NCBI GenBank assembly: GCA_016790765.1
Contig: JAEUMZ010000134.1
Span: 1 to 64,000 of the forward strand
Length of the DNA: 64,000 nucleotides
Direction of reading: 5' to 3'
DNA from: Betaproteobacteria bacterium
GTDB lineage: Bacteria > Pseudomonadota > Gammaproteobacteria > Burkholderiales > Usitatibacteraceae
Below, piece by piece: positions 5,148 to 30,943 of the stretch. Position 1 is the stretch's first letter, and each line of letters opens with the position of its first letter. The position numbers and the translations under genes were made by a program. Below the pieces are notes generated by a model, which saw nothing but the letters and a program-made list of their open reading frames with translations, was not told the DNA's origin and made no database searches.

Positions 5148-5381
5148 ATGCAAACGATTCAGGCTTCCGAATTCAAGGCGAAATGTCTGGCGCTCATGGA
5201 CGAAGTCGCGCGCACGGGGCAAGCCATCGTGGTCACTAAGAACGGGCGGCCCGTGGCGGAGCTCCGTCCGCATCGGCCCCCGCGTGCCTTGAGCCCGCTC
5301 GGCCTGCACGCGGACAAGATTGACATTCGCGGCGATATCGTTGCATCAGACGGCAAAGTGCGCTGGAAAGCGCTTAAATGA
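5148..5381 (+). CDS. Type II antitoxin, Phd/YefM-like (VapB role)
   Basis: Antitoxin of 77 aa. The N-terminal half (ASEFKAKCLALMDEVARTG followed by IVVTKNGRPVAEL) is the Phd/YefM DNA-binding fold; the C-terminal tail should wrap the toxin. ATG 5148 is chosen because GGAGACGAGG lies just upstream, whereas an in-frame ATG at 5130 sits only just after the operator repeat. The stop overlaps the toxin start (ATGATT), ensuring coupled synthesis. It probably represses its own promoter through the dyad at 5100-5129 (inference). Confidence 0.88.
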   Translation: MQTIQASEFKAKCLALMDEVARTGQAIVVTKNGRPVAELRPHRPPRALSPLGLHADKIDIRGDIVASDGKVRWKALK

Positions 5382-5779
5382 TTGTCCTCGATACGCACGC
5401 ATTGGTGTGGATGGACGCGGGTGACAAACAGTTGGGACGCAAAACCCGCGCGAGAATAGAGCAGGATTGGCGCAAGGGTGAGGTGCTCGTCTCGGCAATC
5501 TCTTTTTGGGAGGTTGCGGTTCTCGCCGAGCGAGGTCGCATCAAGCTTGCGTCCAGCATTGCGGACTGGCGGCATGAGCTCATCGCGGCAGGTCTCACCG
5601 AAGTGCCGCTGGACGGGCATATCGCGCTAAGAGCCTCGGAACTCAACGGTTTGTCCGAAGACCCTGCGGATCGCTTCATTGCGGCAACCGCGTTGTTGTC
5701 GCACGCAACGCTCGTCACCGCCGATCGTCGATCACTGGCATGGAAGCACACCTTGGAACGGCTTGATGCGCGTACTTGA
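5378..5779 (+). CDS. PIN-domain toxin (VapC family)
   Basis: PIN-domain ribonuclease toxin of 133 aa. The acidic metal-binding residues are intact: Asp in LDTHALVW, Glu in SFWEVAVL, Asp in DPADRFIAATAL and Asp in TADRR. VapC toxins cleave tRNA or rRNA; this one's target is unknown. It is translationally coupled to the Phd-like antitoxin. The pair marks the boundary between the upstream operon and the accessory DNA that follows, as is common for such loci. Confidence 0.9.
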   Translation: MIVLDTHALVWMDAGDKQLGRKTRARIEQDWRKGEVLVSAISFWEVAVLAERGRIKLASSIADWRHELIAAGLTEVPLDGHIALRASELNGLSEDPADRFIAATALLSHATLVTADRRSLAWKHTLERLDART

Positions 5780-6360: not shown

Positions 6361-7062
6361 TCATGCCGCAAACGGTCGCTTGACGACCGTTGAAATCTCG
6401 ATGGTATGCAATGCGCCCGGAGTTCGGTCAGCGAGGTCCCGCTCCTCATCAGTCAACTCCCCATACATTCGCCCATCTGACTTTCTAGCCTCGACCTCCC
6501 GAGTCAATTCAAATGACTCATTGTCCTTCCATCCTACGCACTTGCCCAAATCTCGAACTCGAGACAGCTCTTTGTACGGCAAGTCATCTGGCGAGGAGAA
6601 GTCATAAAACACGACTTCATACGGACAGGCCCAGTAGCAACCCTCAACCGCGAGTACCTGTGAATCGGGAGAAGGGTGTGCCGCGGTCCAACAAAGACCA
6701 CCGCCGTCATAGCCAGCGTCCGGAAAGTAGCTTCGAATCTCGCCAGTCGAAAGATTAACTATCGTCTGGCCTTGATAATCTTCACCGCAAATTAGGTATT
6801 CATGGCCATTGCCATGGGTGATCCATGAATACCAAAAATGGCCGTAGTTGCGCTTGATGTCGGCGATCATCCTGTTGCCTCGAGTCGTACTAACGCGGCC
6901 TCGGCTGAACTCCCAAGTGTTCGGACCGGTTGAGTAATAGTCCAACGTCAGCCGGTAGGCACGTGACGGTGATTCGATGACTTCACGCTCGTTCGCTTTC
7001 TCTGTGTACGAGGAAAAGCGAGACTCTAGTTCCCTACGCCGCTCGATGTAACGCGTATCCAC
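6361..7062 (-). CDS. Uncharacterised integron cassette protein, 233 aa
   Basis: Cassette-borne protein of unknown function. Visible features are EYLICGEDYQGQTIVNLSTG, then AHPSPDSQVLAVEGCYWACP and YEVVFYDFS. This looks like a beta-rich repeat domain found in scattered bacterial hypothetical proteins. There is no signal peptide or membrane segment. The frame extends upstream through the attC, so the start is set at the GTG at 7062. That GTG lies 8 nt after the R' box, the same spacing as other cassette genes here. It has no room for a promoter of its own and presumably depends on read-through. The stop sits 3 bp before the next R'' box. GC is lower than in flanking core genes. Confidence 0.75.
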   Translation of the reverse strand: MDTRYIERRRELESRFSSYTEKANEREVIESPSRAYRLTLDYYSTGPNTWEFSRGRVSTTRGNRMIADIKRNYGHFWYSWITHGNGHEYLICGEDYQGQTIVNLSTGEIRSYFPDAGYDGGGLCWTAAHPSPDSQVLAVEGCYWACPYEVVFYDFSSPDDLPYKELSRVRDLGKCVGWKDNESFELTREVEARKSDGRMYGELTDEERDLADRTPGALHTIEISTVVKRPFAA

Positions 7063-7070
7063 GTCGAGTC

Positions 7071-7151
7071 GCCTAACGGGTGAGGTAAGGGGCGGCGCGC
7101 TCTTGCGCCGTCCCGCGACCAAAGGGAGCAACCTTGACCGCAAAGTTAGTG
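7071..7151 (-). other. attC recombination site (81 bp)
   Basis: On the + strand the site runs from GCCTAAC (7071-7077) to GTTAGTG (7145-7151). Inside lie L boxes (GAGGTAAG and CTTGACCG) and a central GGGCGGCGCG/CGCCGTCCC stem. The length matches the attC at 30019-30099, and an ungapped hand comparison gives 59 of 81 identical bases. It separates two minus-strand cassette genes with 1-8 bp on either side. Confidence 0.8.
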
Positions 7152-7152
7152 G

Positions 7153-7593
7153 TCATGCCAGCCCTCGCTTTCGAATTGAATGCCACCACCACTCAACCCC
7201 AATGGCTGGCGCGAACCAAAGCGGCAACCACAATGCCATGAGCCAAACCAGAATTCCGCTCTCGGGGTGTCCGGAGTCGCGCGACACGAATGTAACAAGC
7301 AGCCATGTGATGAGGCCTACAACTGGAACCGCCATCAAGTAGGCACCGATGACACGCGGAACGTAAGAGAGAGCTGTTTCTGCCATATCAAGTTTGGACG
7401 GTATGACGAGGCGGCGTCCACGGAAGGCAAATTGCGAAACGCCTGCGGCAAGCATTGCTGCAACAAATACCAAAACATAAACGGGGGGATCTCGTCCAGC
7501 GACAGAATCCCACAGGATTCCGACTACCCAGAACGCAGTTAGCAGAACGCTTAAAGCAAAAATGCCGCGCAGCATATGGGGCCGAATTTCCAT
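7153..7593 (-). CDS. Four-helix membrane protein (integron cassette)
   Basis: Membrane protein of 146 aa with four predicted transmembrane helices (starting near MLRGIFALSVLL, VYVLVFVAAMLA, YLMAVPVVGLITWLL and LVWLMALWLPLWF). Family unknown; small multi-helix proteins are common in cassette arrays. ATG 7593 is chosen because it lies 3 nt after the attC R' box; an in-frame ATG at 7629 would place the start inside the attC stem. The stop codon abuts the attC at 7071-7151. No Shine-Dalgarno sequence of its own is evident. Confidence 0.72.
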   Translation of the reverse strand: MEIRPHMLRGIFALSVLLTAFWVVGILWDSVAGRDPPVYVLVFVAAMLAAGVSQFAFRGRRLVIPSKLDMAETALSYVPRVIGAYLMAVPVVGLITWLLVTFVSRDSGHPESGILVWLMALWLPLWFAPAIGVEWWWHSIRKRGLA

Positions 7594-7596
7594 GAC

Positions 7597-7670
7597 CGCT
7601 AACTCAATATAGGGCGCATTTCGCTGCATATCGCGGCAGCGTGCGCCCTATTACGGTTGAAAAACTAGCG
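7597..7670 (-). other. attC-like site upstream of first cassette
   Basis: The + strand shows CGCTAAC (7597-7603) and, at the far end, ACTAGCG (7664-7670). Between them is a long stem whose arms ATAGGGCGCA and TGCGCCCTAT are perfect complements. L-box-like CTCAA and GTTGA flank the stem. The distal core is degenerate relative to GTTRRRY. Seven bases further on starts the ISL3 target duplication. Confidence 0.65.
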
Positions 7671-7677
7671 GAAAGCA

Positions 7678-7685
7678 TTTTGTTT
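7678..7685. repeat. Target site duplication, left copy
   Basis: The eight bases TTTTGTTT immediately precede the left end of the ISL3 element and are repeated exactly at 12143-12150. Eight-bp duplications are characteristic of the ISL3 family. Confidence 0.9.
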
Positions 7686-7817
7686 GGGTATCCGGATTTT
7701 TGTGTTGGGCCGACGGTATGGTTGGGCAAGATGTCGATAGTGCCGATGTTGGATTCGGCTCGGTCGCGGTTCCAACCAAGAAGTGGCTTATCGGTGTATC
7801 GACGCCTGATGTAGATT

Positions 7818-8225
7818 TCAGTTCTCGTGCAACGCGTCAATCAGCGGGCAGGAGACACGGCCTTGTTGCGCTTGGCATTGGCACACCAGCGTTGACAGAA
7901 CTGTTTCCATTCGTGCCAGGTCGGCCAACTTGGATCGGACATCGGCAAGCCGCAGCGCGGCCAGCTCAGCAGCTTCGCCGCAATGGGTGCCGTCCTCCAG
8001 CTTGAGGAGTTGCCCGACCTCATCCAGGCTGAAGCCAAGGCGCTGCGCTGCCTTCACAAACTTCACCCGCGCCACGTCTGCGCTGCCATAGCGACGAATG
8101 CGGCCGTAGGATCGTTCTGGCGTCAGCAGAAGTCCCTTGTGCTGGTAGAACCGGATTGTCTCCACGTTGACGCCCGCGGCCTTCCCAAAGGCGCCGATGG
8201 TCAGGGTTTCCGATGCAGCATCCAT
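7818..8225 (-). CDS. merR: Mercury(II)-responsive MerR regulator
   Basis: MerR of 135 aa, the repressor and Hg(II)-dependent activator of the mer operon. The N-terminal winged-helix ([19 protein letters not shown]) is followed by the dimerisation helix. The three Hg(II) ligands fall exactly at Cys82, Cys117 and Cys126, the positions known from Tn501 MerR, with an additional Cys115. It is transcribed divergently from merT, with the shared operator between them. The start ATG lies only about 5 bp from the -35 of the mer promoter, so MerR binding should also control its own gene. Confidence 0.95.
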
Positions 8226-8230
8226 GTCGC

Positions 8231-8261
8231 TTGACTCCGTAGTTGACTACGGAAGTAATGT
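8231..8261 (+). promoter_or_regulatory. mer operator-promoter (merOP)
   Basis: TTGACT (-35, 8231-8236) and TAATGT (-10, 8256-8261) are separated by 19 bp, the overlong spacer typical of MerR-controlled promoters. The spacer holds a perfect dyad, CCGTAGT and ACTACGG (8237-8252), the MerR binding site. Hg-bound MerR untwists this spacer to activate merTPA (known mechanism). Confidence 0.93.
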
Positions 8262-8290
8262 TACGCCAGTCCGCAAAGAAGGAGTGCAAC

Positions 8291-8641
8291 ATGGCAGAAC
8301 CTAGAAGTGGTCGCGGCGCCTTGGTCGCAGGCGGCCTGGCGGCCCTCCTGGCCTCGACCTGCTGCCTCGGCCCGCTGGTCCTGATTACGCTGGGCGTTTC
8401 TGGCGCTTGGATTGGCAACCTTACGGCGCTAGAGCCGTATCGCCCGATCTTCATCGGCGCGGCGCTCGTTGCCTTGTTTTTCGCCTGGCGTCGCATCTTC
8501 CGTTCCGCGCAAGCCTGTCTGCCCGGCGAGGTATGCGCCGTGCCGCGGACTCAGAGCATCTACAAGGCCCTGTTCTGGGTCGTCGCCGCCCTTGTAGCCG
8601 TGGCGCTGGCGTTCCCCTATATCGTTCCGCTGTTCTACTAA
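8291..8641 (+). CDS. merT: Mercuric transport protein MerT
   Basis: Inner-membrane Hg(II) importer of 116 aa with three hydrophobic segments. The vicinal Cys pair in ASTCCLGP sits in helix 1 (Cys24-Cys25), and a second pair lies in the cytoplasmic loop (QACLPGEVCA). MerT receives Hg(II) from periplasmic MerP and delivers it to MerA. The start at 8291 follows a good GGAG ribosome site; earlier in-frame starts overlap the promoter. First gene of the merTPA operon. Confidence 0.95.
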   Translation: MAEPRSGRGALVAGGLAALLASTCCLGPLVLITLGVSGAWIGNLTALEPYRPIFIGAALVALFFAWRRIFRSAQACLPGEVCAVPRTQSIYKALFWVVAALVAVALAFPYIVPLFY

Positions 8642-8654
8642 CCGGAGAAGACTC

Positions 8655-10602
<1,948 letters not shown>

Positions 10603-10664
10603 CCGCTTGCGGTGTTTCGCCGCGATGATCCTGTCGCCTCCGAGTCGCGCCAGGAGCTCTCCTG

Positions 10665-12002
10665 CTACTCGAAATGACCTTCCTCCAGCAGCTTGCATAG
10701 CGTGGGGATGTAAGGACCATACTCGACCACCTGCTGCACCTTCTTCTTCCGGACGGACGGACCAGCGCGTGAGTAAGTGAACTCGGCGAGGTTCGGGTTG
10801 AAGTCGTCGACCAGGACCGTCTCCACCACGGCACCATCCTCGCGAGCCTTCTTGTCGTAAAGCATCCGCGCTCGGATCACCTCGAAGCTGTAGCCCCTGC
10901 CCATGCGATTCATGTCCTTCGCCAGTCGGTTGACAGACTCAGTATAGGCATTGGTGATGGGCTGCTCAAAGTAGGCGAATATTTCGTCGTGCCAGTTGCG
11001 GACCGCTGTGGTCAGGTCCTTAAAGACAGGCGCCAGTTCCGGCGCGATGTTGCCCAGCCAGCGCTCGCAGGCCGCTTCCGCACCCGCTCGGCTTTTCTGG
11101 TCCCAGATCGACAGGAAGCCCTCCTTGAGCGCATGCGCCTCGCCTAGAAGCGGGAACTGCTCGAACCAGGCCAGCATGCGCGCCATGGCCGCCGCGTCCA
11201 GGTCGTGCTGCCGCTTGAGCAGCATGAAGCGCTCATCCTTGAGCTTGAGCCGCTGGCGGGCCGAGAGATCCTTCCGCAGACGCTTCCGCAGCTTCTCTAC
11301 CGCCTCATTGGCCATGCGCTGGATATGGAACCGGTCCACCACGATCCGTGCCTGCGGCAGCGTGGCTTTCACTACTTGCCGGTACACGTGATACATGTCC
11401 ATTGCTACCAACTCCACGTTGTCCTTGTCGCGGAGCTGACGGAAATACGGCAGCAGATCCGCCTTGGCGCGGCTTGGACGCACATCAAACACCGTTTTCC
11501 GCTCGATGTTGGTGATCATCGCGCGGTAGCTACCGATGATCTTGATCTCATCGATACCGAGCACCCGCGGCGTCAGAAACCGGACGCTGGTCCCTAGTTC
11601 GGCCACGAAGTCGTCAAAAATGTGCCGAATGGTCTTTTCGTCCAGAGCCACTTGCCTGGCCATGGCAGCAAACGTTTCGCGGAAGCAGTGGGTTCGGACG
11701 TAGTTGACCAAGCGCCCGGTGGCCTGACGCTTGCCGTCGATGTCGGCAATAGGCTCGAACTGCGTCTTGCCACAGGCAATGCAGCGGTAACGCCGTCGCT
11801 GGATCACGATGCGCACGGGCTTGCCGTGCGACGGCGTGTCCTGGAAAGACTGCTCCTGCGAGCCGTGACCGTGCAGCCGGCCAACCTCACACAACTGGCA
11901 AGTGAGCCAGTCGGAACGTCCGGCGGCCTCGACAACGTAAAACTCGTCGTCACTTCGGACAGCAAGCGTTTTAAGGCTAGGCAACTGCAGAAAATCGGTC
12001 AC
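10665..12002 (-). CDS. tnpA: ISL3 family transposase
   Basis: Full-length ISL3 transposase of 445 aa. The N-terminal zinc-ribbon-like region has CQLC and CIACGKTQ, followed by a helix-turn-helix (ATGRLVNYVRTHCF) and the DDE catalytic domain (LGIDEIKI, VAMDMYHVYRQVV, then the late Glu in AYTESVNRLAKDMNRMGRG). It is convergent with merA, with 62 bp between them. It mobilises the 4.5-kb element defined by the inverted ends. No frameshift or premature stop is visible, so it is probably active. Confidence 0.95.
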   Translation of the reverse strand: MTDFLQLPSLKTLAVRSDDEFYVVEAAGRSDWLTCQLCEVGRLHGHGSQEQSFQDTPSHGKPVRIVIQRRRYRCIACGKTQFEPIADIDGKRQATGRLVNYVRTHCFRETFAAMARQVALDEKTIRHIFDDFVAELGTSVRFLTPRVLGIDEIKIIGSYRAMITNIERKTVFDVRPSRAKADLLPYFRQLRDKDNVELVAMDMYHVYRQVVKATLPQARIVVDRFHIQRMANEAVEKLRKRLRKDLSARQRLKLKDERFMLLKRQHDLDAAAMARMLAWFEQFPLLGEAHALKEGFLSIWDQKSRAGAEAACERWLGNIAPELAPVFKDLTTAVRNWHDEIFAYFEQPITNAYTESVNRLAKDMNRMGRGYSFEVIRARMLYDKKAREDGAVVETVLVDDFNPNLAEFTYSRAGPSVRKKKVQQVVEYGPYIPTLCKLLEEGHFE

Positions 12003-12142
12003 TCAGCACCCGGGCAAGCCCACAGTGGAATCCGGCTTTTACGATAACACACCCGGCCGACATTCCAACACTAAAATCCGGTTCTTGAAGTATGTGTTAC
12101 GCCCCTCCAAAACCCCAATCCCACACCAGATTCCGGATACCC

Positions 12143-12150
12143 TTTTGTTT
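12143..12150. repeat. Target site duplication, right copy
   Basis: TTTTGTTT directly follows the right end of the ISL3 element and equals the left copy at 7678-7685. Confidence 0.9.
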
Positions 12151-12157
12151 TCAATGA

Positions 12158-12193
12158 GATGCATAATATTACTGTAAACAAATACAGTCATAA
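12158..12193 (-). promoter_or_regulatory. LexA (SOS) box within a sigma-70-like promoter
   Basis: CTGT (12172-12175), 8 AT-rich bases and ACAG (12184-12187) form a perfect SOS box. On the minus strand it occupies the spacer between ATGACT (-35) and TATTAT (-10) set 17 bp apart, so LexA would block this promoter. Transcription would run leftward, into the transposon today and into the cassette array before the insertion. By base composition roughly one chance match to the 8 defined bases is expected in a window this size, so position is the main support. Confidence 0.5.
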
Positions 12194-12408
12194 CGCAAAC
12201 GACAAACCCGGCACTTGTCTGGATGGGTTGTGGGTTCTTATACCCTGATGTGCTCAAAGTTTAGCACCGCGCAGGGGTGAAACGCTGCGCGGATGGCGGG
12301 GCTTGATATGGGCCTCAGACGGCTGCGCGTGAGGCAGCTGCCCCGAGAATGGCGTTCCGCGCCGATACGACGCGGCACGCAGGCGACGCTGCGGGTAGGT
12401 AACTCGCG

Positions 12409-13884
12409 CTACAACGCCCGCTCCAACGTCTCCACCAATCGCTTCAAAGTCTCCACCCGCGCCCAGGGCTTGTCGTTGGAGGCAATCACGTTCCATGGCG
12501 CGATGCCCGTGGACGTGCGGTCGATCATGTCGGCCACCGCCCGCTCATACTGCGGCCATTTCTTGCGGTTGCGCCAGTCTTCGTCGGTGATCTTGAATTG
12601 CTTGTGCGGGATCTTGGCGCGTTCCTTGAAGCGGCGCAGCTGTTCATCCGGGCTGATGGCCAGCCAGAACTTGGCGACGATGGCGCCGCCCGAGGCGAGC
12701 TGCTCCTCGAATTCGTTGATCTCGTGGTAGGCGCGCATCCAGTCGCCTTCGGCACAGAATTTCTCCACGCGCTCCACCAGCACGCGGCCGTACCAGGAGC
12801 GGTCGAAAATCACCGCGTGGCCGTGCGGCGGCACATGCCGCCAGAAGCGCCACAGGTAGGGGTGCGCGCGTTCCTCGTCACTGGGGGCGGCGATCGGCAC
12901 GATGTGATAGAAGCGCGCGTCCATCGCCCGCGTGATTCGGCGGATGGTGCTGCCCTTGCCGGCCGCGTCCATGCCCTCGAACACCATCACCAGCGAGCGC
13001 TCGCGCATTTTCTTGTGGCGCGTGAGCAGTGACAGCTCGCCCTGGAGCTTATCCAGCTTGCGGCTGTAGTCCTCGCGCGTGAGTTTGCGTTTGTAATCGG
13101 CGGTGTTGAGCACGTCGCGCTGGTCGATCGCGGGCTGCGGCAATGGCTCCCGGCTGACCGGGGGTGCTGCGGGGTTCTTCAGGCGCCGCTGCAGGGCATC
13201 GAGCAGCAGGCGGCCGGCGGTGAGCGAGCGGTACTCGTGGTCGCTGCCCTCGATCACGTTCCAGGGCGCTTCACCGGTGGAGGTTTCCTTGAGCGCGTGT
13301 TCGCAAACGCCGACGAATTCGTCGTAGCGCTTGAAGTGCTTCCAGTCTTCCTTGGTCACGCGCCAGGCGGTTTTCTTCTTCGCGGAGAGTTCTTTCAGGC
13401 GCTTCTTTTGCGCGTCCTTGGAGAGGTGGAACCAGAGCTTCACGATCAGCGCCCCCTCGGCCACCAGCATGCGCTCGTGGTCGCGGATGCGCGCGAGGCG
13501 CTCGTTGAACTCCGCCGCGCTTTCGCTTTCCATCACGCGCTGGAGGATCGGGTCCGTGTACCAGGAGCCGAACAGGATGCCGATGCGCCCCTTGGGCGGC
13601 AGCGCCCGCCAGAACCGCCACATTTCCGGCCGCTGGCGCTCCGCATCGGTGGAGCCGCCGAAGGCGTGGGTGTGGATGTGGCGCGGGTCCATCCATTCGT
13701 TGAACAGGTTGACGGTCTCGCCCTTGCCGGCGCCGTCGACGCCGTTGACCAGGATGATGACGGGAAACCTGGCTTGTTCCAGAAGGTCGTACTGCGCATC
13801 CAGAAGGGCGCGGCGCAGCTTGGGTTCTTCGCGGTCAAATTCCTTTTTTCCCAGCTTGTGACCGATTTCCGCAGACTCGAACAT
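12409..13884 (-). CDS. pap: Two-domain PPK2: polyphosphate:AMP phosphotransferase
   Basis: Protein of 491 aa made of two tandem PPK2 domains. It uses polyphosphate to phosphorylate AMP (class II PPK2). Walker A motifs are GVDGAGKG at residues 48-55 and GMDAAGKG at 304-311. The C-terminal domain keeps the catalytic lid segment FDRSWYGR; in the N-terminal domain the same place reads FGSWYTD. The second half is therefore likely the active one, as reported for characterised two-domain members. Both domains end with the APWNVI motif. The gene stands alone, ending about 260 bp from the SOS-box/transposon junction. Confidence 0.9.
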   Translation of the reverse strand: MFESAEIGHKLGKKEFDREEPKLRRALLDAQYDLLEQARFPVIILVNGVDGAGKGETVNLFNEWMDPRHIHTHAFGGSTDAERQRPEMWRFWRALPPKGRIGILFGSWYTDPILQRVMESESAAEFNERLARIRDHERMLVAEGALIVKLWFHLSKDAQKKRLKELSAKKKTAWRVTKEDWKHFKRYDEFVGVCEHALKETSTGEAPWNVIEGSDHEYRSLTAGRLLLDALQRRLKNPAAPPVSREPLPQPAIDQRDVLNTADYKRKLTREDYSRKLDKLQGELSLLTRHKKMRERSLVMVFEGMDAAGKGSTIRRITRAMDARFYHIVPIAAPSDEERAHPYLWRFWRHVPPHGHAVIFDRSWYGRVLVERVEKFCAEGDWMRAYHEINEFEEQLASGGAIVAKFWLAISPDEQLRRFKERAKIPHKQFKITDEDWRNRKKWPQYERAVADMIDRTSTGIAPWNVIASNDKPWARVETLKRLVETLERAL

Positions 13885-28429: not shown

Positions 28430-28445
28430 GTCAGGTAGCGCTGCG
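28430..28445. repeat. Half copy of family C repeat
   Basis: GTCAGGTAGCGCTGCG is identical to 16 bases of the right arm of the family C palindrome at 20211. It supplies the stop codon and last residues of the cassette GNAT on the minus strand. Confidence 0.7.
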
Positions 28446-28943
28446 TACTTGGCAAACCATGTGGTGTTCATCGTGCAGGACGCCATCCACGAGCAGAAAT
28501 TCGCGCTCGGTTCCGTACACCTCGAATCCGACGCGCCGATACAACGAGATTGCAGCCGCGTTCTGCGTGTTCACGCCCAGATTGACCTGGCGGACGCCAA
28601 GCTCATCGCGAGCGTACGCAAGGGCATGGACCAGCAGTTCCTGGCCGACCCCGGACCTGCGCGCGTCCGGCGCAACGTACATGCCCCAGATGTAGGCCTT
28701 GTGGGCAAGCTTTGACATTCCTTCGCGCTGCACGCCCACCACGCCACGCAACGCCGGACCGGCGAACCAGCCAAAGATCGCGCCATCCGGCTTGTGCGCA
28801 AGGCGTTGGGCAACAACCTCAAGTGGTGTCCCGACTTCTTCCTCATGGCTGGACGCAAAAGCGCTCGGGCACTCCTGCAGGCCGCATAGGCGTACGGACT
28901 GGAATTGCTCAGCGTCTGAGGGAAGCAATCGACGGACGGTCAT
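28431..28943 (-). CDS. GNAT family N-acetyltransferase (integron cassette)
   Basis: Acetyltransferase of 170 aa. The acetyl-CoA motif is GMYVAPDARRSGVGQELL, and the C-terminal unit is NAAAISLYRRVGFEVYGTE. It resembles antibiotic/amine acetyltransferases but has no specific signature. ATG 28943 lies 6 bp after a degenerate attC core, the cassette pattern in this array. On its 3' side a full attC is missing: the stop falls in a family C repeat half-copy, which marks the end of the array. Confidence 0.85.
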   Translation of the reverse strand: MTVRRLLPSDAEQFQSVRLCGLQECPSAFASSHEEEVGTPLEVVAQRLAHKPDGAIFGWFAGPALRGVVGVQREGMSKLAHKAYIWGMYVAPDARRSGVGQELLVHALAYARDELGVRQVNLGVNTQNAAAISLYRRVGFEVYGTEREFLLVDGVLHDEHHMVCQVRSAT

Positions 28944-28949
28944 GGGGTG

Positions 28950-29031
28950 GACTAGCGATCAAGGTAAGGGGCGCGCCGCTGTTGATGCGTCACAGTGAGC
29001 GAAGCGAACGTTCTTCAACGCAATGTTGGAA
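28950..29031 (-). other. attC-like site, degenerate (82 bp)
   Basis: Cores are GACTAGC (28950-28956) and GTTGGAA (29025-29031) on the + strand. Interior elements (AAGGTAAGGGGCGCGCCGCT, then CTTCAACGC) align with the better attC at 30019-30099. It is flanked directly by two cassette genes. Confidence 0.6.
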
Positions 29032-29038
29032 GTCGGGC

Positions 29039-29464
29039 TCACTTTGCGTCCCTAGCTTGGCGAAGTTTTTCAAGTAGCACCTTGTCGCCCTCAAGCGTAG
29101 GCAGAATTGTCCGCGATCCGGAGCACATCCAGACCCAACCTTCGGAGGTTGTGTGAATGATCCACTGATCTCCCGCCATGATGCGAACGCCGCACATGCC
29201 GGTATCAGTGATGGTGCGCAGTACTGTAATGCCGTCAGGACTTCCACGGAATCGCTCAATGAGCTGATATCTGACGCTGACGACGGGAATACCCCGGTCG
29301 GTCTGGGATGTGAGATCCGTGCCGAGGACTTTGGCCTGGAATATGATGGGGGACTTCGAGTCCCACCAGCTCTCCGCGGTCGGACAGGAGCAAGCCGATG
29401 CGATGGGCACGCCCAGAATGCCGAAGACCGATGCGAGAAAGACTGGTACGGCGTTCATTTGCAT
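29039..29464 (-). CDS. TIMP/NTR-like secreted protein (integron cassette)
   Basis: Exported protein of 141 aa. Signal sequence followed by ASACSCPTAE, i.e. mature Cys-X-Cys, then FQAKVLGTDL, YQLIERFRG, TDTGMCGVRIMAGDQWIIHT and a later MCSGSR. The N-terminal CxC, the CGVxxxxGxxxI strand and the paired cysteines are the hallmarks of the TIMP/NTR OB-fold. The first mature Cys could alternatively be lipidated. The ATG lies 3 nt after an attC core and the stop 7 nt before the next one. Role unknown; TIMP-like domains in animals inhibit metalloproteases. Confidence 0.7.
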   Translation of the reverse strand: MQMNAVPVFLASVFGILGVPIASACSCPTAESWWDSKSPIIFQAKVLGTDLTSQTDRGIPVVSVRYQLIERFRGSPDGITVLRTITDTGMCGVRIMAGDQWIIHTTSEGWVWMCSGSRTILPTLEGDKVLLEKLRQARDAK

Positions 29465-29467
29465 GAC

Positions 29468-29545
29468 TTCTAGCGTTCGACGTAACCGGACCGCGGAGGC
29501 TGGCGCAGCCAGCCGTAGTGGGTCCGCTTGATGGAGGGGTTACGC
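29468..29545 (-). other. attC recombination site (78 bp)
   Basis: Minus-strand R'' is GCGTAAC (29545-29539), which contains the TAA stop of the upstream GNAT gene. L'' is CCTCCATCAAGCGGACC, the stem arms are GGCTGGC/GCCAGCC, then GGTTACGTCGAAC and a degenerate R' GCTAGAA (29474-29468). Confidence 0.72.
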
Positions 29546-30013
29546 GTCATTAGGTATGCGCAGCCATTTTTCGAGGTTGACCCCATCCGCGGCACCGCTG
29601 TACATGCGCCGCTTGAGGCAAATTTCGTGGTAGCCGTGCTGGTTGTAGAAGCTGCGGGCGGCGACACTATCTAGGCGCGCCTCGACGCGAACTCGCTTTG
29701 AGCCGGCGACAACTGCACAGGCCTCAAGCCAGGCCAGGATTGAACTACCTACACCTTGACGCTGGCTGGCGGGACGGACAGCAAACAGAACCAGGTGCGC
29801 GTCGTCGTCCCAGTACTCCATGATGCCGAACCCGACCAGTTTGTCTTGTTCGCGAACTACTGCAACGTTTGTGTTTGGTGAGGCAATCGCGCGAGCGACA
29901 CGCGCTGGCTGCCATGACCAAGGAAGCCCGTACTCGATCAAGCTCCTCGACATTTCGGCGATTGCCTCGGAATCACTGGCCAGAGCGAGCTGAATTTGCA
30001 AAGCCGGGGTCAC
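29540..30013 (-). CDS. GNAT family N-acetyltransferase, RimI-like (integron cassette)
   Basis: Acetyltransferase of 157 aa. The acetyl-CoA loop is FAVRPASQRQGVGSSILAWL, and SVAARSFYNQHGYHEICLKR forms the C-terminal unit. The acceptor cannot be inferred. GTG 30013 sits 5 nt after the attC core of the preceding site. The TAA stop is embedded in the R'' box of its own attC (29539-29545), a direct sign of cassette architecture. Confidence 0.85.
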   Translation of the reverse strand: MTPALQIQLALASDSEAIAEMSRSLIEYGLPWSWQPARVARAIASPNTNVAVVREQDKLVGFGIMEYWDDDAHLVLFAVRPASQRQGVGSSILAWLEACAVVAGSKRVRVEARLDSVAARSFYNQHGYHEICLKRRMYSGAADGVNLEKWLRIPNDA

Positions 30014-30018
30014 GTGAC

Positions 30019-30099
30019 GGCTAACGACTTAGCTAAAGGGCGCGCCGCTTTTGGCGCGTCCAGCGACCGAAGGGAGCGACCTTGAGCGCCGTGTTAGGC
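30019..30099 (-). other. attC recombination site (81 bp)
   Basis: From GGCTAAC (30019-30025) to GTTAGGC (30093-30099), with L boxes AGCTAAAG and CTTGAGCG and central stem GGGCGCGCC/GGCGCGTCC. It is the best-preserved attC of the window and resembles the site at 7071-7151. Confidence 0.85.
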
Positions 30100-30105
30100 A
30101 TACCG

Positions 30106-30591
30106 TCACGCGGGCGCGCTTGCGCTAAGGTTGGCATAAGAACGAAGCCACTCTTGAAATGAGGGTGCAACTTTGCCAATGTTCCTCTCCTCATGCAGAA
30201 AAAAATAGACAGGGCTGTCGTCAGCTCGGCCCTTCAAAGAGTCACTTGGCTTTAAACAAAAATAATCGCCTCCCCCGTTCGTTGCAATCGGCACATATCC
30301 GCGCTTTAGACCGAGCTGACGTAGTGATCGCATTTCTGCCGACAATTCCATTGGAGCAAGAAAATGATAGATGGGTTCAAGAAAGTCTTTCGCTGATAAG
30401 GCGGCGTTGGTCAATGACTGCTCGATCTGAACCCAGCCGAACCGCAGGATGAACTCTCGATAGGCTGCGGGCAGCAACCCAAGTTCCCGTTCTGCGGCGT
30501 CAAGCGGGCCAGGATTGACTGTGCTTGGAAGATATTCGGCGTCCACCCATTTCTTCACGAATTGCTGAAAAATCTCGTCGCGTGAATTCAT
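30106..30591 (-). CDS. SMI1/KNR4 family protein (integron cassette)
   Basis: Protein of 161 aa of the SMI1/KNR4 (SUKH-type) superfamily. The signature LPAAYREFILRFGWVQIE is followed by YVPIATNGGGDYFCLKPSD, typical of the fold, and a C-terminal SFQEWLRSYANL. SUKH proteins are often immunity proteins against nuclease toxins, but no toxin gene is adjacent. As a cassette it may be an orphan immunity gene (inference). ATG 30591 lies 7 nt after GTTAGGC, and the stop lies 6 bp before the attC. Confidence 0.82.
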   Translation of the reverse strand: MNSRDEIFQQFVKKWVDAEYLPSTVNPGPLDAAERELGLLPAAYREFILRFGWVQIEQSLTNAALSAKDFLEPIYHFLAPMELSAEMRSLRQLGLKRGYVPIATNGGGDYFCLKPSDSLKGRADDSPVYFFLHEERNIGKVAPSFQEWLRSYANLSASAPA

Positions 30592-30598
30592 TAGGTAT

Positions 30599-30652
30599 GC
30601 CTAACTTAATGTAGTGGAACTAGCTGTCCTCGTATCACGGTCAGCTGTCCTC
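30599..30652 (-). other. Cassette boundary core with direct repeats (attI-like or attC remnant)
   Basis: On the minus strand GTTAGGC (30605-30599) begins the first cassette. Upstream of it are two 10-bp direct repeats, GAGGACAGCT (30652-30643 and 30631-30622), spaced by 21 bp. attI sites have direct repeats beside the core, but no integrase gene follows. Confidence 0.4.
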
Positions 30653-30943
30653 TGATCGGATTGTGGATAGACCGCAAGATCTTCATTGCGATCAAAAGCT
30701 TATCACCCGACTTGCCGCTGATCGACCCCCATAACAGAATCGGCAAAAGCGGCAGACGAATGACGAATCTGCCAATGGAAGTTGGATGCGGAGTGGTCGC
30801 CGAAGTTTGACGTACTCCAACGGTGCCAGACATGAACGCCAGCGCCTCCAAATAGCAAACCCCAGTACTGGCGAGCCTTCCTGGCCAAAACCGCCCCAAA
30901 CGTCGCACCAGTGCTTGACTTTGGCGCACGAACGCCCTGAACC
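30606..30943. other. Gene-free spacer between cassette array and peptidase gene
   Basis: No gene is recognised. It contains the direct repeats near the first cassette core and, at its far end, a copy of the dispersed repeat (30883-30930). Minus-strand frames here are open but show no family resemblance and lack starts with ribosome sites. Confidence 0.5.
30883..30930 (+). repeat. Dispersed ~50-bp intergenic repeat, copy 2
   Basis: Contains CGCACCAGTGCTTGACTTTG followed by GCGCA, the core shared with 39781, 43930, 48371 and (reversed) 56308. Confidence 0.65.

Follow-up and report, generated by a model that had tools for sequence, protein, structure and literature searches.

Integrons are bacterial gene-capture systems which assemble antibiotic-resistance arrays. 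The promoters of integron integrases (PintI) carry an E. coli-type LexA box before intI, and loss of LexA control accompanies inactivation of the integrase (Cambray et al. 2011, PMC3108266). Arrays of cassettes that lack an integrase, known as CALIN, have attC sites as their sole defining feature (IntegronFinder 2.0, PMC9024848) and have been described at several conserved loci in Xanthomonas (PMC12444791), and the delta-attI-type gene cassettes of mobile integrons contain pieces of attI inside cassettes (PMC12901181). The locus described here lies in a 64-kb stretch of DNA, analysed as a whole and referred to as the window. It shares the E. coli-type LexA box with the SOS-controlled integrase promoters (PMC3108266), but here the box persists without the integrase gene. 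As in CALIN (PMC9024848, PMC12444791), attC-bearing cassettes are found without a neighbouring intI; unlike CALIN, the arrays also bear an attI and what remains of an intI promoter, and several such copies occur per genome. The delta-attI cassettes (PMC12901181) resemble this locus in having attI away from the integrase, and their attI pieces still recombine, which makes them a possible dispersal route; in contrast to them, whole attI-PintI modules are present here and head chromosomal cassette arrays. No use of the term "orphan attI" was found in the literature searched. The reading preferred here, to which a probability of roughly 0.9 is given, takes the box for the LexA operator in the PintI of a chromosomal integron, now without integrase and separated from attI by a transposon, and the promoter for a relic or a spare copy (features in Table 1).

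Table 1. Features at and around the split attI-PintI site (window coordinates).
Feature	Position	Strand	Basis or remark
Second-cassette ORF, 233 aa, no family	6361..7062	-	
First-cassette attC	7073..7149	-	attC profile, E 1e-18
First-cassette ORF, 146 aa, no Pfam or NCBIfam family	7153..7593	-	
Left part of attI-PintI module: attI and cassette crossover core (CTAAC at 7599; G/TTAGCG on minus strand)	7598..7685	+	
Target duplication TTTTGTTT, left copy	7678..7685		perfect 8-bp repeat
ISL3-type mercury transposon, 4457 bp	7686..12142		ends and target duplication
merR	7818-8225	-	
merT	8243-8641	+	
merP-like gene	8655-8933	+	
merA	8947-10602	+	
ISL3 transposase	10665-12002	-	
Right part of module: promoter region, LexA box, start of intI leader	12143..12216	+	homology to 12216
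Target duplication TTTTGTTT, right copy	12143..12150		overlaps -35 hexamer
Degraded PintI: TTGTTT (12145-12150), 17 nt, ATTACT (12168-12173)	12145..12173	+	placed by alignment
Promoter-like pair ATGACT-17-TATTAT	12163..12191	-	consensus match only
LexA box CTGTAAACAAATACAG, palindromic operator	12172..12187		pattern search and matrix score
Polyphosphate:AMP phosphotransferase gene, chromosomal, begins where intI is expected	12409..13884	-	

The box CTGTAAACAAATACAG is the single CTGT-N8-ACAG sequence in the window. Since 0.46 matches are expected per window by chance, the eight defined bases alone prove nothing, in agreement with the caution expressed in the initial annotation, and the remaining positions of the site decide. 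The pattern occurs at 11 places in the whole genome, and five of the other sites lie a short way upstream of lexA, recA (two), uvrB and an HMCES-like gene (names assigned by reading the proteins); because of these five sites, the LexA of this species very probably uses an E. coli-type box. With a matrix of 20 positions trained on these five operators, TACTGTAAACAAATACAGTC scored 25.8 bits, compared to 20 to 27 for the training sites, 13.0 for the runner-up 20-mer in the window and a maximum of 18.9 over 300 simulated 64-kb sequences. The site thus matches the species' own SOS operators, as a LexA operator of the beta/gammaproteobacterial type, and the earlier proviso that this LexA might recognise another motif very probably does not apply. 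Judged from its sequence, the orphan SOS box is genuine and far from chance. A mere chance match to CTGT-N8-ACAG, for which only the expectation of 0.46 per window would speak, has a negligible probability, as it is refuted by the homology and spacing given below and is also at odds with the full-site score.

For the comparison with the intI loci found in the family, the flanks of the transposon were fused with the target duplication counted once. This joined site matched the region before the full intI of G010:C44, which belongs to the same genus, with 69% over 132 nt (E 5e-8). A common layout of crossover core, attI, -35/-10, LexA box, leader and intI is seen in four intI-bearing integrons of the genus, with TTGCAA or TTGAAA-17-TATACT as -35/-10 in three of the four. 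The model of these integrons, which left the window out and contained one mistyped flanking base in its first sequence, matches as two adjoining halves at 7599-7682 and 12130-12198, one on each side of the transposon, and gave no match elsewhere in the window up to E=5. A wider profile, for which 24 modules outside the window were used, aligns with the joined site along 159 nt (E=8e-16). With the box masked, E values of 6e-6 for the joined site and 0.001 for the left half alone were obtained, and the match of the right half alone was not significant. The distance between core and box is 108 nt with the transposon removed, compared to 109 nt in the two relatives measurable in the same way and to the approx. 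80 bp from the cassette site assumed initially. The locus is an attI-PintI platform homologous to platforms bearing intI in the same genus, and the "attC-like site" previously thought to head the cassettes is, per this homology, the attI. Homology of the leader past 12216 is not claimed, as 38 of 500 shuffles score as high as the best pairwise comparison. The right edge of the integron DNA is plausibly located at about 12283, because the GC content jumps there.

The conserved promoter, degraded here and represented by TTGCAA-17-TATACT in relatives, is on the plus strand, in the direction of intI, rather than on the minus strand as stated in the initial annotation. The minus-strand pair ATGACT-17-TATTAT described there is present (12191..12163) and flanks the box, and on this strand the relatives show 8-9 of 12 matches. 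It is nevertheless improbable that the cassettes are or were SOS-controlled via a minus-strand promoter overlapping the box: the LexA-box palindrome creates -10-like hexamers by itself, the pair does not coincide in position with the best minus-strand pair of the relatives, the transposon separates promoter and cassettes, and the overlapping cassette promoter of Vibrio cholerae is not SOS-controlled (PMC3948777). The pair also points to the ISL3 transposase gene, the start of which (12002) is about 150 bp away. SOS-inducible transposition driven from the box is still less probable, as this argument is one of position only and the transposon would presumably bring a promoter of its own.

The complete-integron arrangement, with intI beside attI, is not found at this locus. 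Neither tblastn nor profile search found intI at 12188-12408; profile searching for fragments near 12200-12408 gave nothing significant, the same was true of both methods over 12143-12450, and the assembly (80% complete) encodes none that passes the family cut-off, in line with the absence noted from the sequence before. Many weak tblastn matches to intI at 12143-12450 (lowest E 0.012 among the matches listed) had no profile match and were treated as chance. For the DNA between the box and the phosphotransferase gene, no informative relative was present among 300 genomes of the order. The designation "scar of a lost intI promoter" was right in kind, as a remnant is indicated by the match of both halves to the model; "lost" and "never present in this copy" are indistinguishable, and loss of intI in place is not proven, because no intI fragment is left at the locus.

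The element splitting the site, called an ISL3 element in the initial annotation, is larger than the transposase gene and constitutes a mercury transposon. Its termini are GGGTATCCGGA.../...TCCGGATACCC at 7686 and 12142, with GGGTATCCGGA common to both ends. The site of insertion overlaps the -35 hexamer of the former PintI promoter, and attI and cassettes are now 4.5 kb away from the promoter. A relative with the same insertion point was looked for and none was found. In sum, the locus is an attI-PintI module homologous to those of the intact integrons of the genus, with cassettes on its left (attI) side and no integrase gene to the right of the box, and the transposon inserted in its -35 region has pushed attI and cassettes away. 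LexA would probably still bind the box, since it looks like the other LexA boxes of the species. Cleavage of LexA would now release no integrase, and the box presumably lacks a present function. Once no integrase is left to control, such a box would be expected to erode, as the family of integrase-less attI modules in the genus suggests.

Modules of this family (48, the split window copy counted once) were found in 11 of 13 genomes of the genus with model R2, which was made from 25 modules, 24 of this genus and one of the same family. Beyond the genus, a search of the whole family with the first model detected a single module, in G014 of the same family, which is followed by an intI-like stretch; the remaining 14 genomes from other genera gave none. 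A full-length intI is located alongside only 4 of the 48 modules, and one of these four genes has four in-frame stops. In the complete genome G003, the survey threshold yielded eight modules, and no intI passed the cut-off. All four modules with full-length intI retain a box scoring 16 bits or more vs 8 of the 44 without (Fisher p=0.0025), a comparison in which related copies are non-independent, modules with a box are found more readily by the models, the right flank is short in some cases and the limit of 16 bits was chosen with the scores already known. Sister species have dozens of integrase-less modules of this kind, and the box in them is mostly decayed. Two further boxless attI modules of this genome are located at G000:C177:5567-5714 (L183) and G000:C50:33764-33911 (L222). 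The motif TTGCNN-17-TANANT occurs in 10 of the 48 modules and in none of 630 control stretches. Selection for a cassette promoter in the integrase-less modules (orphans) was considered and rejected: the motif mostly survives where the box survives, and its survival is therefore explained by common age.

One orthologous locus appears to display the stepwise decay of intI and box. It is intact in G010:C44, intI has four stops in G008:C84, intI is deleted save 60 nt in G003:1340k (box CGGTATTTATGCACAG), and both intI and box are absent from C177 of the present genome. The window copy might also never have had its own integrase, being a bare attI-PintI unit that was dispersed and loaded by an integrase elsewhere. 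This is a possibility of some weight, if a rather doubtful one. It would fit the 44 of 48 modules without full intI and the 95% identity over 231 nt of G008:C40b to the intI-bearing G010:C18, whose flanks have no detected similarity, and the likely right edge at the window locus is near the same place as in this pair. On the other hand, at least one orphan (G003:1340k) is an in-place intI deletion, and G012:C52 and G004:C60 retain N-terminal intI pieces. Several orphans (module right ends L137-L191 and L222-L234) stop at about the same place, just past the intI codons CTGCAATCG (+229 to +252); for one orphan only with this shared edge is in-place deletion shown. Close to some module ends there is an inverted repeat with the arms CTAGCACTGGCG. 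It is a dispersed repeat that does not belong to the module, and it is very abundant in this genome (G000) and in G002 (129 and 249 hits, respectively, with one mismatch) and rare in G003 and G010.

The boxless modules G003:1449k and G010:C90 have the module and right flank in common (94% over 1.2 kb), and their first cassettes differ, with the break exactly at the core. Cassette exchange after box loss, by an integrase acting in trans, may explain this difference, as may other recombination. G010 carries two intI genes. Tentatively, and with more doubt than confidence, integrase-less attI modules could be scattered docking sites rather than dead scars, kept loaded in trans by one integrase encoded elsewhere; the box would be shed as it is of use to the master copy only. 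With several attI copies in a genome, it becomes a testable question whether one integrase feeds many attI sites. At many loci of the genus the integrase has repeatedly been lost or is absent while the box survives or erodes, which provides a natural series for the rate at which LexA control decays once it has nothing to control.

Left of attI the usual cassette anatomy is found, with the ORF start just past the core followed by an attC, and the attC-bearing cassettes adjoin the attI core in the right orientation. The attC at 7073-7149 belongs to the same family as the attC sites of the intact integron of G002. With regard to the at least two attC without neighbouring intI by which CALIN are recognised, the cluster at 6.3-7.6 kb has one clear attC and one core, and there are two clear attC in that at 28.4-30.7 kb. 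A PIN-domain toxin-like gene is encoded on the plus strand (5378-5779), close to the far end of the first cluster, and the ORF just upstream of it is Phd-like by eye. A 45-aa stretch at 5.9-6.0 kb, which resembles the end of an IS110-type transposase by eye, has no Pfam match and was left unnamed. Another attI module of this family, which lacks both LexA box and intI, is located at 30597-30757 and heads a second cluster of minus-strand cassettes (28431-30591) encoding a SUKH-like protein, two GNAT acetyltransferases and one unknown protein.
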